A model generated the notes under the pieces. That model did no database searches. It was not told the origin of the DNA and saw only the letters and a program-made list of their open reading frames with translations. From Acidobacteriota bacterium (GTDB taxonomy: Bacteria; Acidobacteriota; Thermoanaerobaculia; Multivoradales; JBCCEF01): 64,000 bases of DNA. The stretch is taken from NCBI GenBank assembly GCA_039028635.1, contig JBCCHV010000007.1:62001-126000 (forward strand), given 5' to 3'. The translations under genes were made by a program, and so were the position numbers. The number at the start of each line of letters is the position of its first letter. The stretch's first letter is position 1. This document shows positions 2,837 through 34,154 of the stretch, in pieces.

Positions 2837-3118
2837 ATGCATCAAGAGTGGCCGGTCGTCAAAACCTTCGGAACGGAAGAAGAAGCTGCCCTGGTGGCGG
2901 GGTTTCTGCGCTCTCGGGACTTGCCGGTGGAGGTCGACTCGCGCCTCTTCCGCCAGGAGCCGGTGACCTTCGGCGCCCTCGGTGACGTGCGCCTGCGGGT
3001 CCCCCCAGAGCACGTCGAGGAGGCGAAGCGTCTGCTGGCGCAGGCCGAGGCCGACCTCGAAGTGCTGGAGAAGACGCCCTTCGAAGATGACGAACAGGAG
3101 CCGGACGAGTCACCATGA
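2837..3118 (+). CDS. DUF2007-type putative signal-transducing protein
   Basis: The 93-residue protein has the DUF2007 pattern: an opening strand (WPVVKTF), a helix in which residues near positions 16-25 (EAALVAGFLRS) precede a second strand (PVEVDS), a V-x-V-P segment (LRVPPEHVEEA) and a final helix. The tail is acidic and unstructured. AGGAG precedes the ATG. It overlaps the kinase gene downstream by 4 nt (ATGA), so it is probably made in ratio with the kinase and may be its partner or target; that link is inferred. Confidence 0.7.
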   Translation: MHQEWPVVKTFGTEEEAALVAGFLRSRDLPVEVDSRLFRQEPVTFGALGDVRLRVPPEHVEEAKRLLAQAEADLEVLEKTPFEDDEQEPDESP

Positions 3119-5436
3119 GCACCTTCGCCCCGGGCTCGACCCTCGGCCGCTACCGCATCGAGCGGCTGCTCGGGAGTGGTTCGATGGGCGAGGTGTATCT
3201 GGCCGAGGACCCGCAGATCGGGCGCCGCCTGGCGATCAAGACGCTGCGCTTCATCGGGGTGCGGCCGGAGGAGCTCGACGAGCGCCAGAAGCGCTTCATG
3301 CAGGAGGCGCGGACCGCCGGCAGTCTCAATCATCCGCGCCTGGTGACGCTGTTCGATGCCGGCGAGGACGATGGCTTTTTCTTTCTCGCCTTCGAGTACG
3401 TGCCCGGCTCCGACCTCGCCGACCGGTTGCGCAGTGAGCCGCCCTTGACTCTGGGCGAGGCCCTGATCATTGCCACCCAGACCTGCGAGGGCCTCGATCA
3501 CGCCCATCGCCACGGCGTGATCCACCGCGACATCAAGCCGAGCAACATCCTGCTCGATGCCGAAGGGCAGGTGAAGATCAGCGACTTCGGCATCGCCAAG
3601 ATGGTGGGTCAGAACACCGAGCTGACGGTCACCGGCTCGGTGATGGGCAGCCCCCATTACCTGTCGCCGGAGCAGATTCGCGGCGAGGAGCTCGATGGCC
3701 GCTGCGACCTGTTCGCTCTCGGCGTCGTGCTCTACGAGATGCTGAGCCGGGAGAAGCCCTTCGCCGGCGAGAGCATCAGCACGCTGGTCTACCAAATTCT
3801 GCAGACCGAGCCGCGGCCCCTCGACGAGCTGCGGCCGGACCTGCCGCCGGCGCTGCAGCGGGTGCTGCGCATGCTGATCGCAAAGAATCGGGAAGACCGC
3901 TTCCGCACCGCCCGCGAGGCCGCCGATGCCCTCACCGAAGTGCAGGGAGACCTCGGGACCGGACCGCTGAGCTCGGTGGCCGCCGGCGATTGGGAGCTCG
4001 AGCCGACGCAGCGCCTCGAGACCGGCTCGATGGAGGTGGTTTCCGGCTCGGCCGAAACCCGGCCGGCGTCATCGGTTCCGCCCCCACCGCCGCCGCCCGT
4101 GCCGGGCTCGGCGCCGTCGACGCAGTCTCCCGTGCCCCCGAGCCCGCCGGCGCAGATTCCGCCGACCCAGATCCCGCCGACCCAGCCGATGGAGATGTCG
4201 ACGCCTCCAGCGGCGACACCGGCCGGTCCGGCCCCTGGCGCACCCCGTCGATCGGTGAAGCTCTGGATGATCATCGCAGCGGTGACGGTGGTGATGATCT
4301 TGGGATTGATCGTCGGCGCGGCGGTGGTGCGCAATCTCCTGGTGTCGGGGACTCGCCTCGCCGAGCAGGCAGTCGGCGCCACGGACGAAGCGGGCGGGGA
4401 GAGCCCTGCCGGGACGGCCGCCGAGGGCGCGCCTTCGGTGGCTGGATCCGAATCAGCCGACATCGAGGCGGCCGACACCGAAGGGGGTGAAGGCGAGACC
4501 GTCGGCGGTCTCGACGATCCTCTCGGTCTCGGGGTCTCGGCTTCGCCGGACGACTTCCAGAACGATCCCAACGGAGGTTGGGTGCCGGAGGGCGAAGCCA
4601 CCGAGGAGGCGCCGCTCGAGGCTCGGCCGCCGGCCGGAGCTGCTTCGGAGCGAGACTTGCCTGCACCGGGAGCCACTCCGCCGACGCGCCAGCCGACCCG
4701 AGCGCCGGATCCGGATTCATCGCCGCCAGCCGGCGGCCAGCAACCGGGGCGGCAGACGGAGACTCCGCCGGCGCAGGTTCCGCGCCAGCCGCCGCCGTCG
4801 ACGGCTCCGGAGATCGAACCCGGCGCGGCAGAAGCCGAAGATCTGCCGGCGGCGGCGCAGGCCGCCGATCGCGAGATCCGCAGCGGCTTGCGCTTGAGCT
4901 TCCGGGTCCAGCCGCAAGATGCCTTCGCCCTGCTCGATGGCGTGGTCATCGGACGTGCCAGTCAGTGGAGCTCCGCCAGCGGCAATCCCTACACCCTGCC
5001 GGATCCCGGTACCTACATCCTCACCCTGCGCCGTGCCGGCATGAAGGACTACCGCCTGCGAGTGGTGGCGCAGGCCGGCGGCAGCGGCGTGACCCCGGTG
5101 GTGGTGCGCCTCGAGCCGCGGGCGGCGAGCGACCTCGAGCTGTCCGACCTGCAGATCTACCGGGTGCGCGAGGCGATCGCCTTCAAGGTGTTCCCGAAGA
5201 CGGCGCGGGTGCTGGTGGACGGGGAGCCGGTGGGCTTGGCGCAGCGCTACAACGGCGGCGTCGGCAAGCGGCGCTGGCTGGAGCTGTCGCGCGGCATGCA
5301 CCGGGTGTCGCTGGTGGCGCCGGGACACCGCCGGGTCGACTTCGCCGTCGACGTCGGCTCGGGGGCGAACGATCGCCGCCAGAAAATCACCGTTCAACTG
5401 CTGCCCCTCGGGGGCGGTGGAGGAAGCACTCCTTGA
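3115..5436 (+). CDS. Transmembrane Ser/Thr protein kinase with C-terminal PEGA-like domains
   Basis: The kinase domain (about 13-280) is intact: glycine loop GSGSMG (20-25), K42, HRD (137-139), DFG (157-159) and an SPE motif. A Pro/Ser/Thr-rich linker (about 320-382) leads to one membrane helix (about 384-408). An acidic low-complexity stretch follows, then two PEGA-like beta domains (about 595-670 and 685-765; motifs LLDGVVIG and LVDGEPVG). The protein therefore has a cytoplasmic kinase and an outward sensor that may touch the cell wall or periplasmic proteins. It is coupled to DUF2007 upstream and to two M16 peptidase genes downstream by 4-nt and 1-nt overlaps. A PP2C phosphatase that could oppose it sits at 33.4 kb. 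Confidence 0.92.
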   Translation: MSTFAPGSTLGRYRIERLLGSGSMGEVYLAEDPQIGRRLAIKTLRFIGVRPEELDERQKRFMQEARTAGSLNHPRLVTLFDAGEDDGFFFLAFEYVPGSDLADRLRSEPPLTLGEALIIATQTCEGLDHAHRHGVIHRDIKPSNILLDAEGQVKISDFGIAKMVGQNTELTVTGSVMGSPHYLSPEQIRGEELDGRCDLFALGVVLYEMLSREKPFAGESISTLVYQILQTEPRPLDELRPDLPPALQRVLRMLIAKNREDRFRTAREAADALTEVQGDLGTGPLSSVAAGDWELEPTQRLETGSMEVVSGSAETRPASSVPPPPPPPVPGSAPSTQSPVPPSPPAQIPPTQIPPTQPMEMSTPPAATPAGPAPGAPRRSVKLWMIIAAVTVVMILGLIVGAAVVRNLLVSGTRLAEQAVGATDEAGGESPAGTAAEGAPSVAGSESADIEAADTEGGEGETVGGLDDPLGLGVSASPDDFQNDPNGGWVPEGEATEEAPLEARPPAGAASERDLPAPGATPPTRQPTRAPDPDSSPPAGGQQPGRQTETPPAQVPRQPPPSTAPEIEPGAAEAEDLPAAAQAADREIRSGLRLSFRVQPQDAFALLDGVVIGRASQWSSASGNPYTLPDPGTYILTLRRAGMKDYRLRVVAQAGGSGVTPVVVRLEPRAASDLELSDLQIYRVREAIAFKVFPKTARVLVDGEPVGLAQRYNGGVGKRRWLELSRGMHRVSLVAPGHRRVDFAVDVGSGANDRRQKITVQLLPLGGGGGSTP

Positions 5437-27770: not shown

Positions 27771-29840
27771 TCAGGAGCGGGCGAGCTCGATGGCCTCGAC
27801 GGTGAGGCTCTGGCCGGCGACTTCGGCGGTCTCGCCGGGGGCCTTGCCGAGCAGGCCGGCGGCGAGCTCCGACTCATAGGAGACGATGCCGTTGTCGGGG
27901 TCGCTTTCCCACGGTCCGAGAATCGTCAGCACGGTGTCCTTCGCTCCCCCGGTCAGGCGGACCCGGGTGCCGACTCGCACCTGCGAGGGGTCGATCTGCT
28001 CGAAGCGGATGGGCTGAACCCGGCTGAGATCGTGGTTGAGGCTGGCGATCAGCGACGACAGGTACTCGTGGCGCTGGCGGGCCGACTTGTACTCGAAGTT
28101 CTCGCGCAGGTCGCCGAGGGCGCGGGCTTCTTCGATCGCCTTGCGATTGGCCGGAATCTCCACCGACACCAAGTTCTCGAACTCAGCACGCTTGGCGCTG
28201 ATCGACTCCTCGGTGGCGTAGAGGATGTCGCTGACCTCCCCATCGCCGCGCAGCTCCGGGAAGCGCAGCTCGAGGGCGGTGATCAGCTCTTCGCGCTCGT
28301 AGGTTTCGAGCATGCCGGCTCGGTCGATGGCATCGACCGCGGCGGAGGCCTGCTCGGCAGTCAGAGCCGAGAGCAGTCGCGGCACCGTGTTGCCGGACTC
28401 GAACAGCTTCTTTAGGCGCAGGCGGTAGGGGGCGAGCTCGTCGCGACCGAGGTAGACCAGAATCTGCTGTAGCAGACGCAGTGGGTTGCGCTGGCGCAGG
28501 CTTTCGTCCTCGGAAGCACCCTCGGCGAACCACACGAAGGCGCCCGGGGCGCGGTGGGGCTGGGTGAGGGTGGCGTCGAGGAAACGCTCGAAGCCCTTGC
28601 TGCCTTGGAGGCTGCGGGCCAGTACCTCGACGGCGCGGGTGTCCGGCTCGTGGGCGATGCGGTCGAGGAAGACGCCCAGGTGGTCGTCGCGCTCTTCGAA
28701 GACCAGGCGGTAGGCCTCTTCGCGCAGAGAGCGATCCTCGATGCCGCCGAACAGCTTTTTGAGATTGGAGGTCTCGCCGATCAGGGCAGCCGGCGACCAG
28801 GGCAGGTCTTCCGTCGGTAGGCCGGCGCGCTGCAGGGCGTACCAGATCTCGAAAGCCAGGCCGGGCTCGGTGACCAGCGATTCCACCGCCGTCTTGGCGA
28901 GCTCGGCGCCCATCTGAGCGCGCAAGTCTTCGTCCCGCGAGCCATCGCGGCGCAGCATGCTCATGCGCTGACGCACCGGGGCTTTGCGGAAGGCGATCCA
29001 CACCGACTCGACGGCGTCGCCACTCGATTCCGCCCAGGTGTAGGTTTGCTTGGGGCCGGCGAGCACCTGCGGATGCTTGCGGGCGGCGGCCCACCAGGAA
29101 GTCCACTTGGAGCTGGTGACCACGCCGTGCAAGGCCGACTTGATATCGCCTGCCTTCAGGGGGCGGTCGTAACTTTCGAGCAGCGCTCGGAGCACTTCCG
29201 ACGGATCTCCCTGAGCGGCCTTCTTGAGGCCTTCCGGGTCCTCCAGCTTGCGCCGCAGGATGTGCCCTTCGGGCAGAGGCGTCAGCAGCTTGGCGGCGGC
29301 CCGGAAGCCGACGTTCATGCCGGAGATGCGGTCGAAGTCGACCTTGAAGGCTTTGAGCGCGAAGTTGGTGTCGACGATGCGGCCGGCGCCCTTGCCGTCC
29401 ATCAGTACCACCGAGCCGCGCTCGAACTGCATCAGGGAGCGCAGCCGGTCGACCTTCTCCCAGACCTTCTTGAGGTCCTTGGGGGCGAGGTGCAGATTGA
29501 CCGTCTCGATCATCCCTTCGAGGGCCTGGCGCCCGCTGTAGATCTGACGCAGGGTCTCGAGAATGGCGGCGTGCAGGTCGTCGCCGGCGAGCAGCGGTCC
29601 GGCGAGCTCGAGGAGAGCCAGCCGCAGGCCCCAGAACTTGCGCTCCTGGAGCTGCTCGTCGAGCACTCCCAGAAGGGTGCGGGCACGATCCTGCTCGCCG
29701 CTGCCGACGAGGGCTCGCGCCGTCCCGACGAAGTAGTCCAGATCCGTCGCGTCCTGGTCGATTCGCGCCAGCCAGTCATCCTCGAGGGCATCGAAGTTGC
29801 CCTTCTCGATCTGGCCTCGGGTGTCTCTTGAAACAGCCAT
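27771..29840 (-). CDS. GreA/GreB-domain protein with large N-terminal helical extension
   Basis: About 540 residues of mostly helical, repeat-like sequence precede a complete Gre module (about 545-689). That module has a coiled coil with the acidic tip GDLRENFEY, matching the GreA Asp/Glu pair that stimulates RNA cleavage, and a C-terminal FKBP-like domain (VRLTGGAKDTVLTILG). Ordinary GreA is near 158 residues; a long GreA form is known in spirochaetes. It probably binds the RNA polymerase secondary channel through the Gre end, while the role of the N-terminal part is unknown. ATG 29840 is preferred over ATG 29864 because of the conserved-looking start; neither has a strong ribosome site. Confidence 0.8.
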   Translation of the reverse strand: MAVSRDTRGQIEKGNFDALEDDWLARIDQDATDLDYFVGTARALVGSGEQDRARTLLGVLDEQLQERKFWGLRLALLELAGPLLAGDDLHAAILETLRQIYSGRQALEGMIETVNLHLAPKDLKKVWEKVDRLRSLMQFERGSVVLMDGKGAGRIVDTNFALKAFKVDFDRISGMNVGFRAAAKLLTPLPEGHILRRKLEDPEGLKKAAQGDPSEVLRALLESYDRPLKAGDIKSALHGVVTSSKWTSWWAAARKHPQVLAGPKQTYTWAESSGDAVESVWIAFRKAPVRQRMSMLRRDGSRDEDLRAQMGAELAKTAVESLVTEPGLAFEIWYALQRAGLPTEDLPWSPAALIGETSNLKKLFGGIEDRSLREEAYRLVFEERDDHLGVFLDRIAHEPDTRAVEVLARSLQGSKGFERFLDATLTQPHRAPGAFVWFAEGASEDESLRQRNPLRLLQQILVYLGRDELAPYRLRLKKLFESGNTVPRLLSALTAEQASAAVDAIDRAGMLETYEREELITALELRFPELRGDGEVSDILYATEESISAKRAEFENLVSVEIPANRKAIEEARALGDLRENFEYKSARQRHEYLSSLIASLNHDLSRVQPIRFEQIDPSQVRVGTRVRLTGGAKDTVLTILGPWESDPDNGIVSYESELAAGLLGKAPGETAEVAGQSLTVEAIELARS

Positions 29841-29896
29841 CGTGAAGAAAGCGCAACATAGCACACAACGGGAGCCGGTATCGATACCATTTCGCC

Positions 29897-30631
29897 ATGG
29901 ACGAGTCCGCCGCTGCCGACCTCGCCAGCCGCCTACGCCAGGTGGAGGCGGAAGAGCTCCTGCGCTTGGTTCGCGAGCTGCCCGACGAACAGCTACGGGG
30001 CGCCGCCGCGAGGCAGGCGTTGCGCAACCCCTTCGCCGGCTCCGAGGTGATCGTCGCTCTGCTTCGCCGGCCGGCCCTGCGTCACGTCTACGAGCTGCGC
30101 CGGGACATCGCCTTTCATCCGCAGACGCCGGAGGCCCGGGCCCTCGAGCTGCTGCCGACGCTCTTCTGGCGCGATCTGGCGGCCCTCGGGACCGAGATGC
30201 GGGTCCGACCCACCCTGCGGCGGGCCGCTGACCGTCATCTCATCCGCCGCTTCACCGGCCTCTCCTTGGGCGAGAAAATCGCCCTCGCCAAGCGCGCCGG
30301 GCCGGTTCTGATGAGCCATGCGCGCAGCGACCCCAGTCCGGCGGTGATCGCGGCACTGCTCGACAATCCGCGGCTGACGGAGGGCCTGCTGGCGCCGCTG
30401 CTGCAGCGCGAGGACGTCAATCCGGCGGTGCTCGAGGTGATCGCCCGCAGCCGCCGCTGGGGCCAGCGCTACGGCATCCGGCGGGCCCTGTGCAGCAATC
30501 GCCGGACGCCCCTCGCCACCGCCTTGGCGCTCCTGCCGCTGCTCAAGAAGGCGGACCAGCGGGCCCTCGCCCGGGACCGCCGGGCGGCGCCGCCGGTGCG
30601 GCGCCGAGCCAAGCTGCTCGCCGGTGGTTGA
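29897..30631 (+). CDS. Helical-repeat hypothetical protein, paralogue of the gene at 31654
   Basis: The 244-residue protein is nearly all alpha-helical with HEAT-like spacing (DPSPAVIAALLDNPRL, VNPAVLEVIARSRRW). Its C-terminal third aligns with that of the gene at 31654: SRRWGQRYGIRRALCSNRRTP here against SRRWVSKYKIASALVHNPRTP there, and ALARDR against SLSRDR. The very basic C-terminus (RRAAPPVRRRAKLL) suggests nucleic-acid or acidic-partner binding. It is divergent from the Gre fusion gene. No assigned function is known to me. Confidence 0.7.
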   Translation: MDESAAADLASRLRQVEAEELLRLVRELPDEQLRGAAARQALRNPFAGSEVIVALLRRPALRHVYELRRDIAFHPQTPEARALELLPTLFWRDLAALGTEMRVRPTLRRAADRHLIRRFTGLSLGEKIALAKRAGPVLMSHARSDPSPAVIAALLDNPRLTEGLLAPLLQREDVNPAVLEVIARSRRWGQRYGIRRALCSNRRTPLATALALLPLLKKADQRALARDRRAAPPVRRRAKLLAGG

Positions 30632-30705
30632 GGCCGGTGGGGACGAGTGCCGGCCGGAGGCGCCCGTGGTGCCCTTCCGGGGCATGGGCTTGATATGGTT
30701 AAGTC

Positions 30706-30714
30706 TGGTACAAT
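30706..30714 (+). promoter_or_regulatory. Extended -10 promoter of the RodZ-like gene
   Basis: TGGTACAAT forms a TGn-extended -10 box; no well-spaced -35 box is seen. Transcription would begin near 30721, giving a very short leader to ATG 30728. Confidence 0.45.
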
Positions 30715-30727
30715 CTTAAGTTTAGAG

Positions 30728-31657
30728 ATGGGAGAGCCGCAGATCTCACCGATGCCGCGCCAGCGGACCCCGCGGTCCCCTTCGGACGACGCCCTCGGTT
30801 CGTCCGACGAGGGGCGTAAACCGCCATGGCAAAAGGAAGGATCGAGCGCTGACGAGGCGTCCTTCGGGCGCTGGCTGCGGCGCCAGCGGGAGGTGCGTGA
30901 GATCGACCTGCGAGAGATCGCCGACCGCACCAAGATCAGCCTCCGTTACCTCAAGGCGATGGAGCAGGATCGCTTCGATCTACTGCCGGCGCCGGTGTTC
31001 GCCCGTGGCTTCCTGCGCGAGTATGCACGCTACGTCGGACTGAGTCCCGACGAAGTGGTCAATTTCTACCTCTCGGCTCACGAGGAGATGGAGGCTCTCG
31101 ACGACGAGGGGACGGTCACGCCGCGTCACCGCAGCTCCGTCCTGCGTCACGGATTGCTGCTCGCCCTGGCCGTCGCGCTGATGGTGGCACTGGCGGTTTA
31201 CGTCGCCTTCTATCTCGAGAATCGCCGCTCCGCCGCGCCCGCCGAAGAGGCGCCCGCGGCGGCGGTGCCGTCGCCGCCGGAGGATGCGGCTCCGGTGTTG
31301 CGCGGCGCCGCCCCTGCCGCCCTGCCGGCCACGATGGCGCCAAGCCCCGAGGCGGCTGCTGCAGCGGTGCCGAGGGCACCCCTCGAGGTGACCCTCGACT
31401 TCACCGCCGAGTGCTGGGTCGAGGCGCTGATCGACGGCCGTCAGCGTCTCAGCGAGCTGCACGTGCAGGGAGAGTCCCTGTCGTTGACGGCGGAGTCCGA
31501 GGTCCTGTTGCGCAAGATCGGCAATGCCGCCGGCGTCGAAGTGCACGTCAACGGTCGGCCCTTCCCGCTCGATGGCTCGGCCGGCCAGGTGGTTCGGGAT
31601 GTGCGTATCGACCTCGAAGTAGTGGAGGGCCTCCAGACCGAGGCTCCGGCGGTGTGA
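30728..31657 (+). CDS. RodZ-like HTH membrane protein with DUF4115 domain
   Basis: A charged N-terminal tail leads into an Xre-type HTH of the RodZ family (about 45-115; LRRQREVREIDLREIADRT, KISLRYLKAME, FARGFLREYARYVGL). One membrane helix (about 142-165) and an Ala/Pro linker follow, then an outer DUF4115 beta domain (about 220-300; CWVEALIDG). RodZ ties MreB filaments to the membrane and helps set cell shape. ATG 30728 is used; ATG 30752 and an upstream GTG 30647 are alternatives. The next gene overlaps by 4 nt. Confidence 0.85.
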   Translation: MGEPQISPMPRQRTPRSPSDDALGSSDEGRKPPWQKEGSSADEASFGRWLRRQREVREIDLREIADRTKISLRYLKAMEQDRFDLLPAPVFARGFLREYARYVGLSPDEVVNFYLSAHEEMEALDDEGTVTPRHRSSVLRHGLLLALAVALMVALAVYVAFYLENRRSAAPAEEAPAAAVPSPPEDAAPVLRGAAPAALPATMAPSPEAAAAAVPRAPLEVTLDFTAECWVEALIDGRQRLSELHVQGESLSLTAESEVLLRKIGNAAGVEVHVNGRPFPLDGSAGQVVRDVRIDLEVVEGLQTEAPAV

Positions 31658-32682
31658 CCGCTCGCTCCGACGATCTTCTCCAACAAGTCGTCACGGGAGA
31701 CAATCGCCAGCTCAAGTCGCTGGCGGCCCAGGGACTGCTGCCGGTCGAGCCGGCCGATCTGATCCCGGTTCAGGTCGCCCTTTCGGCGGGCGAGGATCCC
31801 CAGCTCGCCCTCGAGGCCGATGCCGCTCTGCGCCGCCTCGAGCCCGAGATGGTGAGTCATTTTCTCGAGCGCCAGGCGAGTCAGGCGGAGATCGCCTTCT
31901 TCGCCCGCTCGGTGCGCCATCCGCTGATCATGGAAACCATCCTGGCGCGGCGCGACGTTTCCCGCGAGCTACTGGTGGAGCTCGCCGGCAATCTCGAGCC
32001 GGACTTCCAGGAGCTTTTGCTGCTGCGCCAAGATGTCGTGGTCGAGGAGCCGGCGGTCCTCGATGCGTTGGAGGGCAATCCTCAGGTCAGCAGCTACTCC
32101 CGGCGGCGCATTCGCGAGTACCGGGAGCACCTCTTGCCGCGGCCGCGGCGCGATGATCTGGAACCGGATCATCCCGAGTACGAGGCGACGGACGAGGAGC
32201 TCGAGGCGGCCATCGCCCAAGTGCAAGACGAGCTACCGCCGGAGGAGGGCGAGGAGCCGGCGGACGAGCTCACCGGGCTGACGGAATCCCAGATCCGGAT
32301 GCTTCCGGTGCCGGCTCGCATGCGCTTGACCCGCGGCGCTCGCCACAGCCTGCGCGCCATCCTGGTGCGGGATCCGAATCCTTATGTCGCGGTCGCGGTA
32401 CTCAAGTTCAATGCCGTCACCGAGCAGGAGATCGAGCAGATTTCCTACAGTCGGCTGGTGGTCGAGGAGGTTCTCGAGCACATCCTGCGATCGCGTCGTT
32501 GGGTCAGTAAATACAAGATTGCCTCCGCCTTGGTGCATAATCCCCGCACTCCGGTCGGCGCAGCGGTGCGCATGGTGCCGAGATTGTCGGTCAGGGATCT
32601 GCGGAGCTTGAGTCGAGACCGCAATGTGGCGGAACCGGTTCGCGCGACTGCAGGACGTTTGTATAGAATAAAGCGTCGATAG
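31654..32682 (+). CDS. Helical-repeat hypothetical protein, paralogue of the gene at 29897
   Basis: The GTG start overlaps the RodZ-like stop (GTGA). The 342-residue protein is made of helical repeats (about 1-150 and 210-342) separated by an acidic insert (EATDEELEAAIAQVQDEL, then EEGEEP). The C-terminal repeat with SRRW, NPRTPVGAA and SLSRDRNVAEPVR is shared with the gene at 29897. The fold is likely HEAT-like and the end is basic (RLYRIKRR). Translational coupling to the RodZ-like gene suggests a joint function. No family name can be given with confidence. Confidence 0.72.
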   Translation: MTARSDDLLQQVVTGDNRQLKSLAAQGLLPVEPADLIPVQVALSAGEDPQLALEADAALRRLEPEMVSHFLERQASQAEIAFFARSVRHPLIMETILARRDVSRELLVELAGNLEPDFQELLLLRQDVVVEEPAVLDALEGNPQVSSYSRRRIREYREHLLPRPRRDDLEPDHPEYEATDEELEAAIAQVQDELPPEEGEEPADELTGLTESQIRMLPVPARMRLTRGARHSLRAILVRDPNPYVAVAVLKFNAVTEQEIEQISYSRLVVEEVLEHILRSRRWVSKYKIASALVHNPRTPVGAAVRMVPRLSVRDLRSLSRDRNVAEPVRATAGRLYRIKRR

Positions 32683-32751
32683 ATCCGGCCGCGTGCGCTC
32701 CGCGGAGATCAGGATCCAGGCATTTCGCCTTTACCCTCGGGATCGATCAGA

Positions 32752-33396
32752 GTGGCCAAGAATTACTACGACATCCTGGGCCTCGGCCAGAATGCGACCG
32801 ACGCCCAGATCCGGGAGCGCTTCAAGGCGATGGCCCGTGAGCGCCATCCGGATCGCTTCCAGGGGGCCGAAAAGGCCGATGCCGAGGTCGCTTTCCAAGA
32901 TCTGACGGAGGCCTTCAACGTCCTCCTCAACGCCGAGCGCCGGCGCCAGCACGATCTCGAGCTGGCCAATCCGGAGGCGGACCAGCAGGGGGTCGATTCG
33001 GCGCAGCTGGCGCGGGTTTACCTGCAGCGCGGCGTCAAGTCCTACCGCGAAAAAAATTATCTCCAGGCGGCCGACAACTTCGATCGAGCCACCAAGGCCG
33101 AGCCCGAGAACGCCCTCGGCTGGTACAATTTGGCTCTCGCCTGCAGTCATCAGCAGCGCTGGATGTCGCGCTCTCTGACGGCGATCGCCAAGGCCTGCGA
33201 GCTCGCCCCCATGAACGTCACCTACCTCAAGACCGCGGGACGATTGCACGCCCGCGGGGGGCGTCTGACGCAAGCCGAGAAATACTACGAGCAGGCCCTC
33301 ACCTGGGGCGGTGAGGACGAGACCATTCGCCGTCAGCTCGACGAGGTGCGGAGCTCCAAACGACCGCGCTCCGGTCTCTTCGGGAGGGGGAGCTGA
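32752..33396 (+). CDS. J-domain protein with TPR repeats
   Basis: The J domain (1-70) keeps the HPD tripeptide at 32-34 (ERHPDRF), so it should stimulate an Hsp70 ATPase. Residues about 80-190 form three TPR units (LQRGVKSYREKNYLQAADNF, split at its turn; GWYNLALACS; AEKYYEQALTWG). No zinc-finger or substrate domain of classic DnaJ is present. The GTG start is followed at once by the conserved KNYYDILGL. The next gene overlaps in TGATG. This mix suggests a dedicated co-chaperone for a specific complex. Confidence 0.85.
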   Translation: MAKNYYDILGLGQNATDAQIRERFKAMARERHPDRFQGAEKADAEVAFQDLTEAFNVLLNAERRRQHDLELANPEADQQGVDSAQLARVYLQRGVKSYREKNYLQAADNFDRATKAEPENALGWYNLALACSHQQRWMSRSLTAIAKACELAPMNVTYLKTAGRLHARGGRLTQAEKYYEQALTWGGEDETIRRQLDEVRSSKRPRSGLFGRGS

Positions 33397-34154
33397 TGGT
33401 CTCCGTGAAGGCTTACGGTCTGACCGACCGAGGGCTCACTCGGTCTCACAACGAAGACTATTTCGAGATCGACTCGAGTCAAAACCTCTACCTGGTGGCC
33501 GATGGCATGGGCGGCCACCGGCACGGCGAAGTCGCCTCGCAGCTCGCCGTGCGCACGATCAAGGACTTCGTCGACAAGACGTCGCACCAGGATGCGACCT
33601 GGCCCTTCGTGCCGGAGCCGCGCCTGCGGCGCCAGACCAACGTGCTCAAGATGGCGGTGCGTCTGGCTCACGATCGGGTGATGTACGCCATTCGCGAGGA
33701 CCGGCGCCTCTTCGGCATGGGGACGACGGTGGTCGGCTTTCTGCTCGATGACGATCAAGCGGCCATCGCCCACGTCGGCGACAGTCGCGCCTACCGGCTG
33801 CGCGACGGCCAGCTCGAGCTGCTGACCCAGGACCACACCTGGGTCAACGAGCAGGTGGTGGCGGGTTTCCTCTCCCTCGACCAGGCGCGGGTGCATCCGC
33901 TCAAGAACGTCGTCACTCGCGCCCTCGGCGGCGAGAAGGACATCGCCGTCGACGTGCGCGAGGAGCAGGTGCAGCGCGGCGACCTCTACATTCTGTGCTC
34001 GGACGGCCTCACCACCATGTTGAGCGATGCCGAGATTCAGGCCGGGGCCGAATCCTCCGCCAGCCTTGCCGAGATCTGCCGCAACCTGGTCGATGCCGCC
34101 AACTCCCGCGGTGGCCACGACAACGTCACCGTCATCGCCCTCGGCATCGAGTAG
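33396..34154 (+). CDS. PP2C-type Ser/Thr protein phosphatase
   Basis: All PP2C metal motifs are present: RSHNEDYF (near 17), VADGMGGH (near 35), GMGTTVVG (near 108), HVGDSRAYRL (near 126), CSDGL (near 203) and GGHDNVTVI (near 240). At 252 residues it is a single-domain Stp/PrpC-type enzyme that removes phosphates placed by kinases such as the one at 3.1 kb. It is translationally coupled to the J-domain gene. Three bases separate it from the convergent VWFA gene. Confidence 0.93.
   Translation: MVSVKAYGLTDRGLTRSHNEDYFEIDSSQNLYLVADGMGGHRHGEVASQLAVRTIKDFVDKTSHQDATWPFVPEPRLRRQTNVLKMAVRLAHDRVMYAIREDRRLFGMGTTVVGFLLDDDQAAIAHVGDSRAYRLRDGQLELLTQDHTWVNEQVVAGFLSLDQARVHPLKNVVTRALGGEKDIAVDVREEQVQRGDLYILCSDGLTTMLSDAEIQAGAESSASLAEICRNLVDAANSRGGHDNVTVIALGIE

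Follow-up and report, generated by a model that had tools for sequence, protein, structure and literature searches.

Why should a rodZ gene of an acidobacterial genome lie between genes for two related repeat proteins and be followed by genes for a J-domain protein and a PP2C phosphatase? The locus occurs in a 64,000-nt stretch (hereafter the window, G000:C7:62001-126000) of a 6.28 Mb draft genome that is 95% complete. The Acidobacteriota are abundant, and the control of their growth has to our knowledge been little studied. A sequence-only reading of this DNA had proposed that the five genes encode a phospho-regulated assembly module for the cell envelope or cytoskeleton. We asked whether the genes form a unit, what their products are and how such a unit might act on RodZ; a putative module of this kind remains plausible.

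Gene arrangement and the paired repeat proteins

As had been described from the sequence, ORF calls in the window placed five consecutive, tightly packed and co-directional genes on the + strand (Table 1). Both of the proposed overlaps are present: the GTG start of orf3 overlaps the rodZ stop codon by 4 nt (GTGA), and the ATG of the PP2C gene overlaps the stop codon of the J gene (TGATG). The remaining gaps are 96 nt between orf1 and rodZ and 69 nt between orf3 and the J gene. We took ATG 30728 as the start of rodZ; an alternative, longer frame beginning with GTG at 30647 was judged less likely. No sigma-70-like promoter was found, an absence of little weight in this phylum.

Table 1. Genes of the operon and its divergent neighbor (window positions)
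Gene	Position	Strand	Product
flanking gene	27771..29864	-	697 aa; outside the module, divergent from orf1; long N-terminal part with a GreA/GreB domain fused at its C terminus
orf1	29897..30631	+	244 aa; predicted alpha-solenoid (HEAT/LRV-like); orf3 paralogue, one of two RodZ flankers
rodZ	30728..31657	+	309 aa; cytoplasmic HTH_25, transmembrane helix, periplasmic RodZ_C
orf3	31654..32682	+	342 aa; predicted alpha-solenoid, two blocks
J/TPR gene	32752..33396	+	214 aa; J domain and TPR; candidate Hsp70 recruiter
PP2C gene	33396..34154	+	252 aa; Stp1/IreP-type Ser/Thr phosphatase

Compared to a congener, substitutions at codon positions 1/2/3 were 0.26/0.20/0.45 in orf1 and 0.24/0.16/0.52 in orf3. 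This excess at position 3, together with homologues across the phylum, indicates that the two frames are genes and did not arise by chance. The C-terminal repeat that the two proteins had been said to share was recovered by BLAST as a 91-aa alignment with 43% identity (E = 1e-16), and a profile comparison related them over almost their whole length (probability 99.7, E = 4e-27). Neither protein matched a Pfam or NCBIfam family above threshold, one chance-level Pfam match aside, and no unrelated known family was matched, which agrees with the earlier statement that they belong to no known family. ORF1 and ORF3 define a protein family absent from these two databases. In a maximum-likelihood tree of 100 sequences (the orf1 family alignment comprised 34 loci) the two groups split at 100/100 support, and both copies are therefore older than the divergence of the sampled classes.

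AlphaFold2 models, built on shallow five-row alignments, predicted an all-helical fold for both proteins. The ORF3 model (mean pLDDT 75.5 and pTM 0.40, with pLDDT >85 in parts only) has two solenoid blocks and a disordered acidic linker between them (about residues 163-205). The ORF1 model (mean pLDDT 69.6) exceeds 85 for about residues 120-244 and is poor in its N-terminal half. A fold search with the ORF3 model returned generic armadillo/HEAT/LRV solenoids, 1LRV and importin/armadillo folds among them, with none outstanding and Z ≤7.5, a range common for repeat proteins. Some members of the family gave weak matches to HEAT_2, LRV and LRV_2, and the pattern NPxTP...LxxLxxD of ORF1 and ORF3 resembles that of LRV (PF01816, PF25591) and HEAT_2 (PF13646) repeats. 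The window proteins differ in falling under the curated thresholds and showing no Fe-S domain, and in the two-block layout with a disordered linker. The predicted alpha-solenoid folds support the idea, already contained in the sequence-only reading, that ORF1 and ORF3 are scaffolds.

Searched against PDB sequences, the orf3 profile found nothing beyond weak matches to alpha-helical proteins, such as designed repeats and a repeat protein of the axoneme; the orf1 profile found no match. The plasmids searched contained no orf3 relative. A phage-defence reading was dropped: PADLOC matched PP2C models for the phosphatase alone, and a PHROGs search gave nothing above chance. Homologues of orf3 of ~630-670 aa with a duplicated N-terminal block occur at one locus (L121) and in family f43 (G108, G120, G152, G177, G215).

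Conservation and loss across the Acidobacteriota

Conservation of the gene neighborhood had been named as a check on the proposed module. Relatives of orf3 were found in 44 of 59 relatives and in 134 of the 199 genomes of the phylum; in the comparison with RodZ, orf3 was counted in 130 and RodZ_C in 109 of the 199. The complete order orf1-rodZ-orf3-J-PP2C is present in 35 of 63 loci (19/20 within the same taxonomic order and 16/41 outside it), and it is kept although ORF3 identity falls to ~30% and the genes beyond the operon on either side vary. When all neighbors were clustered against one another, only the operon genes recurred in distant loci; with these and antisense shadow frames set aside, each other neighbor family was present in ≤6 of 43 distant loci. 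A contig scan with a single sequence returned three acidobacterial loci, with one Thermoanaerobaculum among the named relatives.

Of 82 genomes that possess both rodZ and orf3, 73 have the two as immediate neighbors on one strand, with rodZ upstream. In 18 of 50 loci the overlap of these genes is exactly 4 nt, their spacing is mostly within 10 nt, and the J and PP2C genes are coupled in much the same way; start codons in the relatives were assigned by script and these spacings are approximate. No gene fusions among the five were seen in the loci read. In the rodZ-orf3 loci outside the taxonomic order, the presence or absence of orf1 went with that of PP2C (counts 18/0/3/8; Fisher p = 3.8e-5, uncorrected for relatedness). 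Some loci end at contig ends, and the genome counts are non-independent through relatedness.

In one genus of the same taxonomic order (g4, 14 genomes) orf1 and orf3 are absent, and we found no close orthologue of the J/TPR or PP2C gene: the best PP2C matches were 29-38% identical, against the 58% reached in a same-family member that has kept the operon; the J matches were for the most part limited to either the J domain or the TPR region. The genus retains RodZ and MreB, and in the three g4 loci read rodZ is still beside the greA fusion, the gene whose location shows where rodZ ancestrally lay in this taxonomic order. As the lost genes flank rodZ on both sides, a single simple deletion does not explain their absence. 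The viability of g4 also means that the four genes are dispensable for basic RodZ function. None of the four partner genes was found near RodZ in 12 other loci that have no adjoining orf3.

The gene order held across classes, the pairing of rodZ with orf3 and the loss of four genes around a retained rodZ make it a well supported conclusion that the five genes are a conserved functional unit tied to RodZ. Neither of the two outcomes that had been named as refuting the module, an unconserved gene order or a match of the repeat proteins to a known unrelated family, was observed.

The tie is not exclusive. No adjoining rodZ was seen for orf3 in 11 of the 41 loci outside the taxonomic order (one of the 11 is truncated close to the end of its contig), and in some lineages orf3 occurs without RodZ or any other partner. 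In small genomes of family f18 (L096, L110 and L111), orf3 has no rodZ and lies upstream, by a few kb, of a sigma factor and zinc-finger pair.

The phosphatase, the J protein and RodZ

The J/TPR protein matched DnaJ (4.5e-16) and TPR_2 (1e-10) and contains the HPD motif, of which Pro33 and Asp34 are invariant in 41 of 41 aligned J sequences. On these features it is a candidate Hsp70 recruiter. The phosphatase scored 242.4 bits against NCBIfam NF033484 (Stp1/IreP; cut-off 230). Its catalytic and metal-binding motifs are intact: an alignment of 43 sequences shows no variation at motif residues that include D36, D203, D242 and N243, and judged by sequence the enzyme is active-looking.

It is also the one match to PF13672 (PP2C_2) in the host genome, a count that refers to a 95% complete draft and leaves SpoIIE-type enzymes aside, compared to ~64 Ser/Thr (Hanks-type) kinases (Pkinase matches, E <1e-20). 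A single PP2C_2 phosphatase set against this number of kinases probably serves more than RodZ. The operon PP2C is thus likely a general phosphatase, and the case for one dedicated to RodZ is weakened. The sequence-only reading is partly supported: its five-gene unit is conserved, while the sole phosphatase complicates the putative phospho-regulated module, and in some lineages orf3 also occurs partnerless. Across the phylum, an Stp1-type PP2C lies downstream of orf3 (within 1.2 kb) in 51 genomes, 34 of which have no other Stp1-type match.

One explanation for such a set is a housekeeping operon without any physical complex, where RodZ, a general phosphatase and a J protein are co-expressed for growth and the solenoids act elsewhere. 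The position of the PP2C as sole PP2C_2 enzyme and frequently the only Stp1-type match is consistent with this, as are the solitary copies of orf3 and the variability of the envelope-related flanking genes. However, simple co-expression poorly explains why paired paralogues should surround rodZ. Nor does it sit easily with the loss in g4 of four genes from both sides of a rodZ that stayed, with the co-variation of orf1 and PP2C outside the taxonomic order, or with a block order held at ~30% identity without conserved flanks. We regard this explanation as somewhat unlikely.

Another possibility is that ORF3 and the PP2C form the core, the solenoids being substrate or targeting subunits of the phosphatase and RodZ one of several clients. 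Their role would be like that of the HEAT-repeat scaffold subunit of PP2A, though not by descent. One phosphatase facing ~64 kinases would need targeting subunits. Consistent with such a core, nine of the 51 genomes with the orf3-PP2C arrangement have a gap too small for a J gene, and two loci (L142 and L143) keep orf3 beside PP2C with rodZ undetected. On the other hand, loci that have rodZ-orf3 and lack PP2C are common too (L062, L102, L104, L106, L107, L117, L118 and L123), orf3 alone occurs, and orf3 adjoins rodZ more often than it adjoins PP2C. We regard a phosphatase-centered core as quite unlikely.

The sole RodZ_C match of the host genome is the operon rodZ. Its product matched HTH_25 (5.2e-25) and RodZ_C (1.6e-14), has a hydrophobic segment between them, and aligned with chain R of 2WUS, the T. 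maritima RodZ solved together with MreB (3.6e-07). F95 and Y99, which we take to be MreB contact residues, are kept in 49 of 52 and 44 of 52 sequences, respectively. According to a review, RodZ binds MreB via its HTH and juxtamembrane region (PMC4929429). MreB was found in 196 of the 199 genomes of the phylum, the host included, so its co-occurrence with the operon is uninformative. In four loci (L141, L147, L093 and L112) a “mini-RodZ”, which has the HTH and the transmembrane helix but hardly any periplasmic part or none, is adjoined by orf3 and PP2C. That the operon is kept with mini-RodZ points to the cytoplasmic half of RodZ as the working part of the module.

It could be speculated that RodZ regulates transcription from the membrane and that the operon serves signalling of the partner-switching or sigma type, given the HTH, the HTH-and-transmembrane-only mini-RodZ and the work of PP2C enzymes like SpoIIE in partner switching. 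However, this is highly improbable: the PP2C is of Stp1 type and not SpoIIE type, the operon has no anti-sigma or STAS gene, the window RodZ carries RodZ_C, and there is conservation at the positions that align with RodZ in the 2WUS complex with MreB.

A possible module at the elongation machinery

The reading that we prefer, with a probability of roughly 0.4, is that this is an ancient acidobacterial operon acting from the cytoplasmic side on the RodZ/MreB elongation machinery, with the solenoids tethering the J protein and the PP2C. RodZ would be the membrane anchor and would bind MreB through its HTH domain. ORF3, plus its paralogue ORF1 in full operons, would be an alpha-solenoid adaptor that docks at the cytoplasmic domain or juxtamembrane region of RodZ and holds the J/TPR protein, as recruiter of DnaK, and the Stp1-type PP2C. 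Elongasome proteins (RodZ, MreB-associated or others) could then have their phosphorylation and their folding or state of assembly reset locally. The genomes show a strong gene association; these contacts, like the DnaK step, the choice of substrates and a role in cell shape, are our inference. Because the PP2C is the cell's sole PP2C_2-family phosphatase, the module would probably also bring a general-purpose phosphatase to sites of growth, not one reserved for RodZ. Counting against this reading are the several rodZ-orf3-PP2C operons that have no J gene, the copies of orf3 with no adjoining rodZ, the persistence of RodZ and MreB in g4 without the four genes, and a sole PP2C that may be a general enzyme with no tie beyond the shared operon. 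A stronger version, where the solenoid pair fixes an Hsp70 recruiter and the cell's main Ser/Thr phosphatase to RodZ/MreB on the cytoplasmic side and so opposes dozens of Hanks-type kinases at growth sites, we consider unlikely.

If true, this stronger version would be a cell-elongation control complex so far undescribed, with dozens of kinases opposed via one scaffolded phosphatase. The operon suggests a putative, undescribed way of controlling the growth of these cells, and it offers an entry to the regulation of the shape machinery outside model bacteria. An often-only Stp1-type phosphatase, RodZ and an undescribed protein family provide named genes with which to ask how a single phosphatase can serve dozens of kinases.

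Several known systems share parts of this arrangement. The RodZ domain layout, the 2WUS match and the genomic MreB are like the RodZ-MreB elongasome of E. coli, T. maritima and B. subtilis. We know of no RodZ locus that combines paired solenoid paralogues with a J/TPR protein and a PP2C, and the literature searched contained no description of this RodZ/solenoid/J/PP2C operon. In sporulating B. subtilis, RodZ binds the PP2C SpoIIE directly (PMC4945075); SpoIIE belongs to a different PP2C subfamily and acts in sporulation as a membrane-bound enzyme, while the operon PP2C is Stp1-type and predicted to be soluble. In S. thermophilus, phosphorylation of RodZ depends on PknB (PMC6593474). The loci that pair Stp1/PstP with a PASTA-type kinase in Firmicutes and Actinobacteria have the same type of phosphatase and a link to cell-wall growth, and one source places the actinobacterial PstP within a cell-wall and division locus (PMC6554272). 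Unlike at those loci, the operon PP2C sits with rodZ and the solenoids, and the operon contains no kinase.

Elsewhere in the window, ~27 kb upstream of the PP2C gene, a Ser/Thr kinase domain lies at 3151-3906 (ORF 3115-5436; G000:C7:65151-65906). It is the second-best Pkinase match of the genome.
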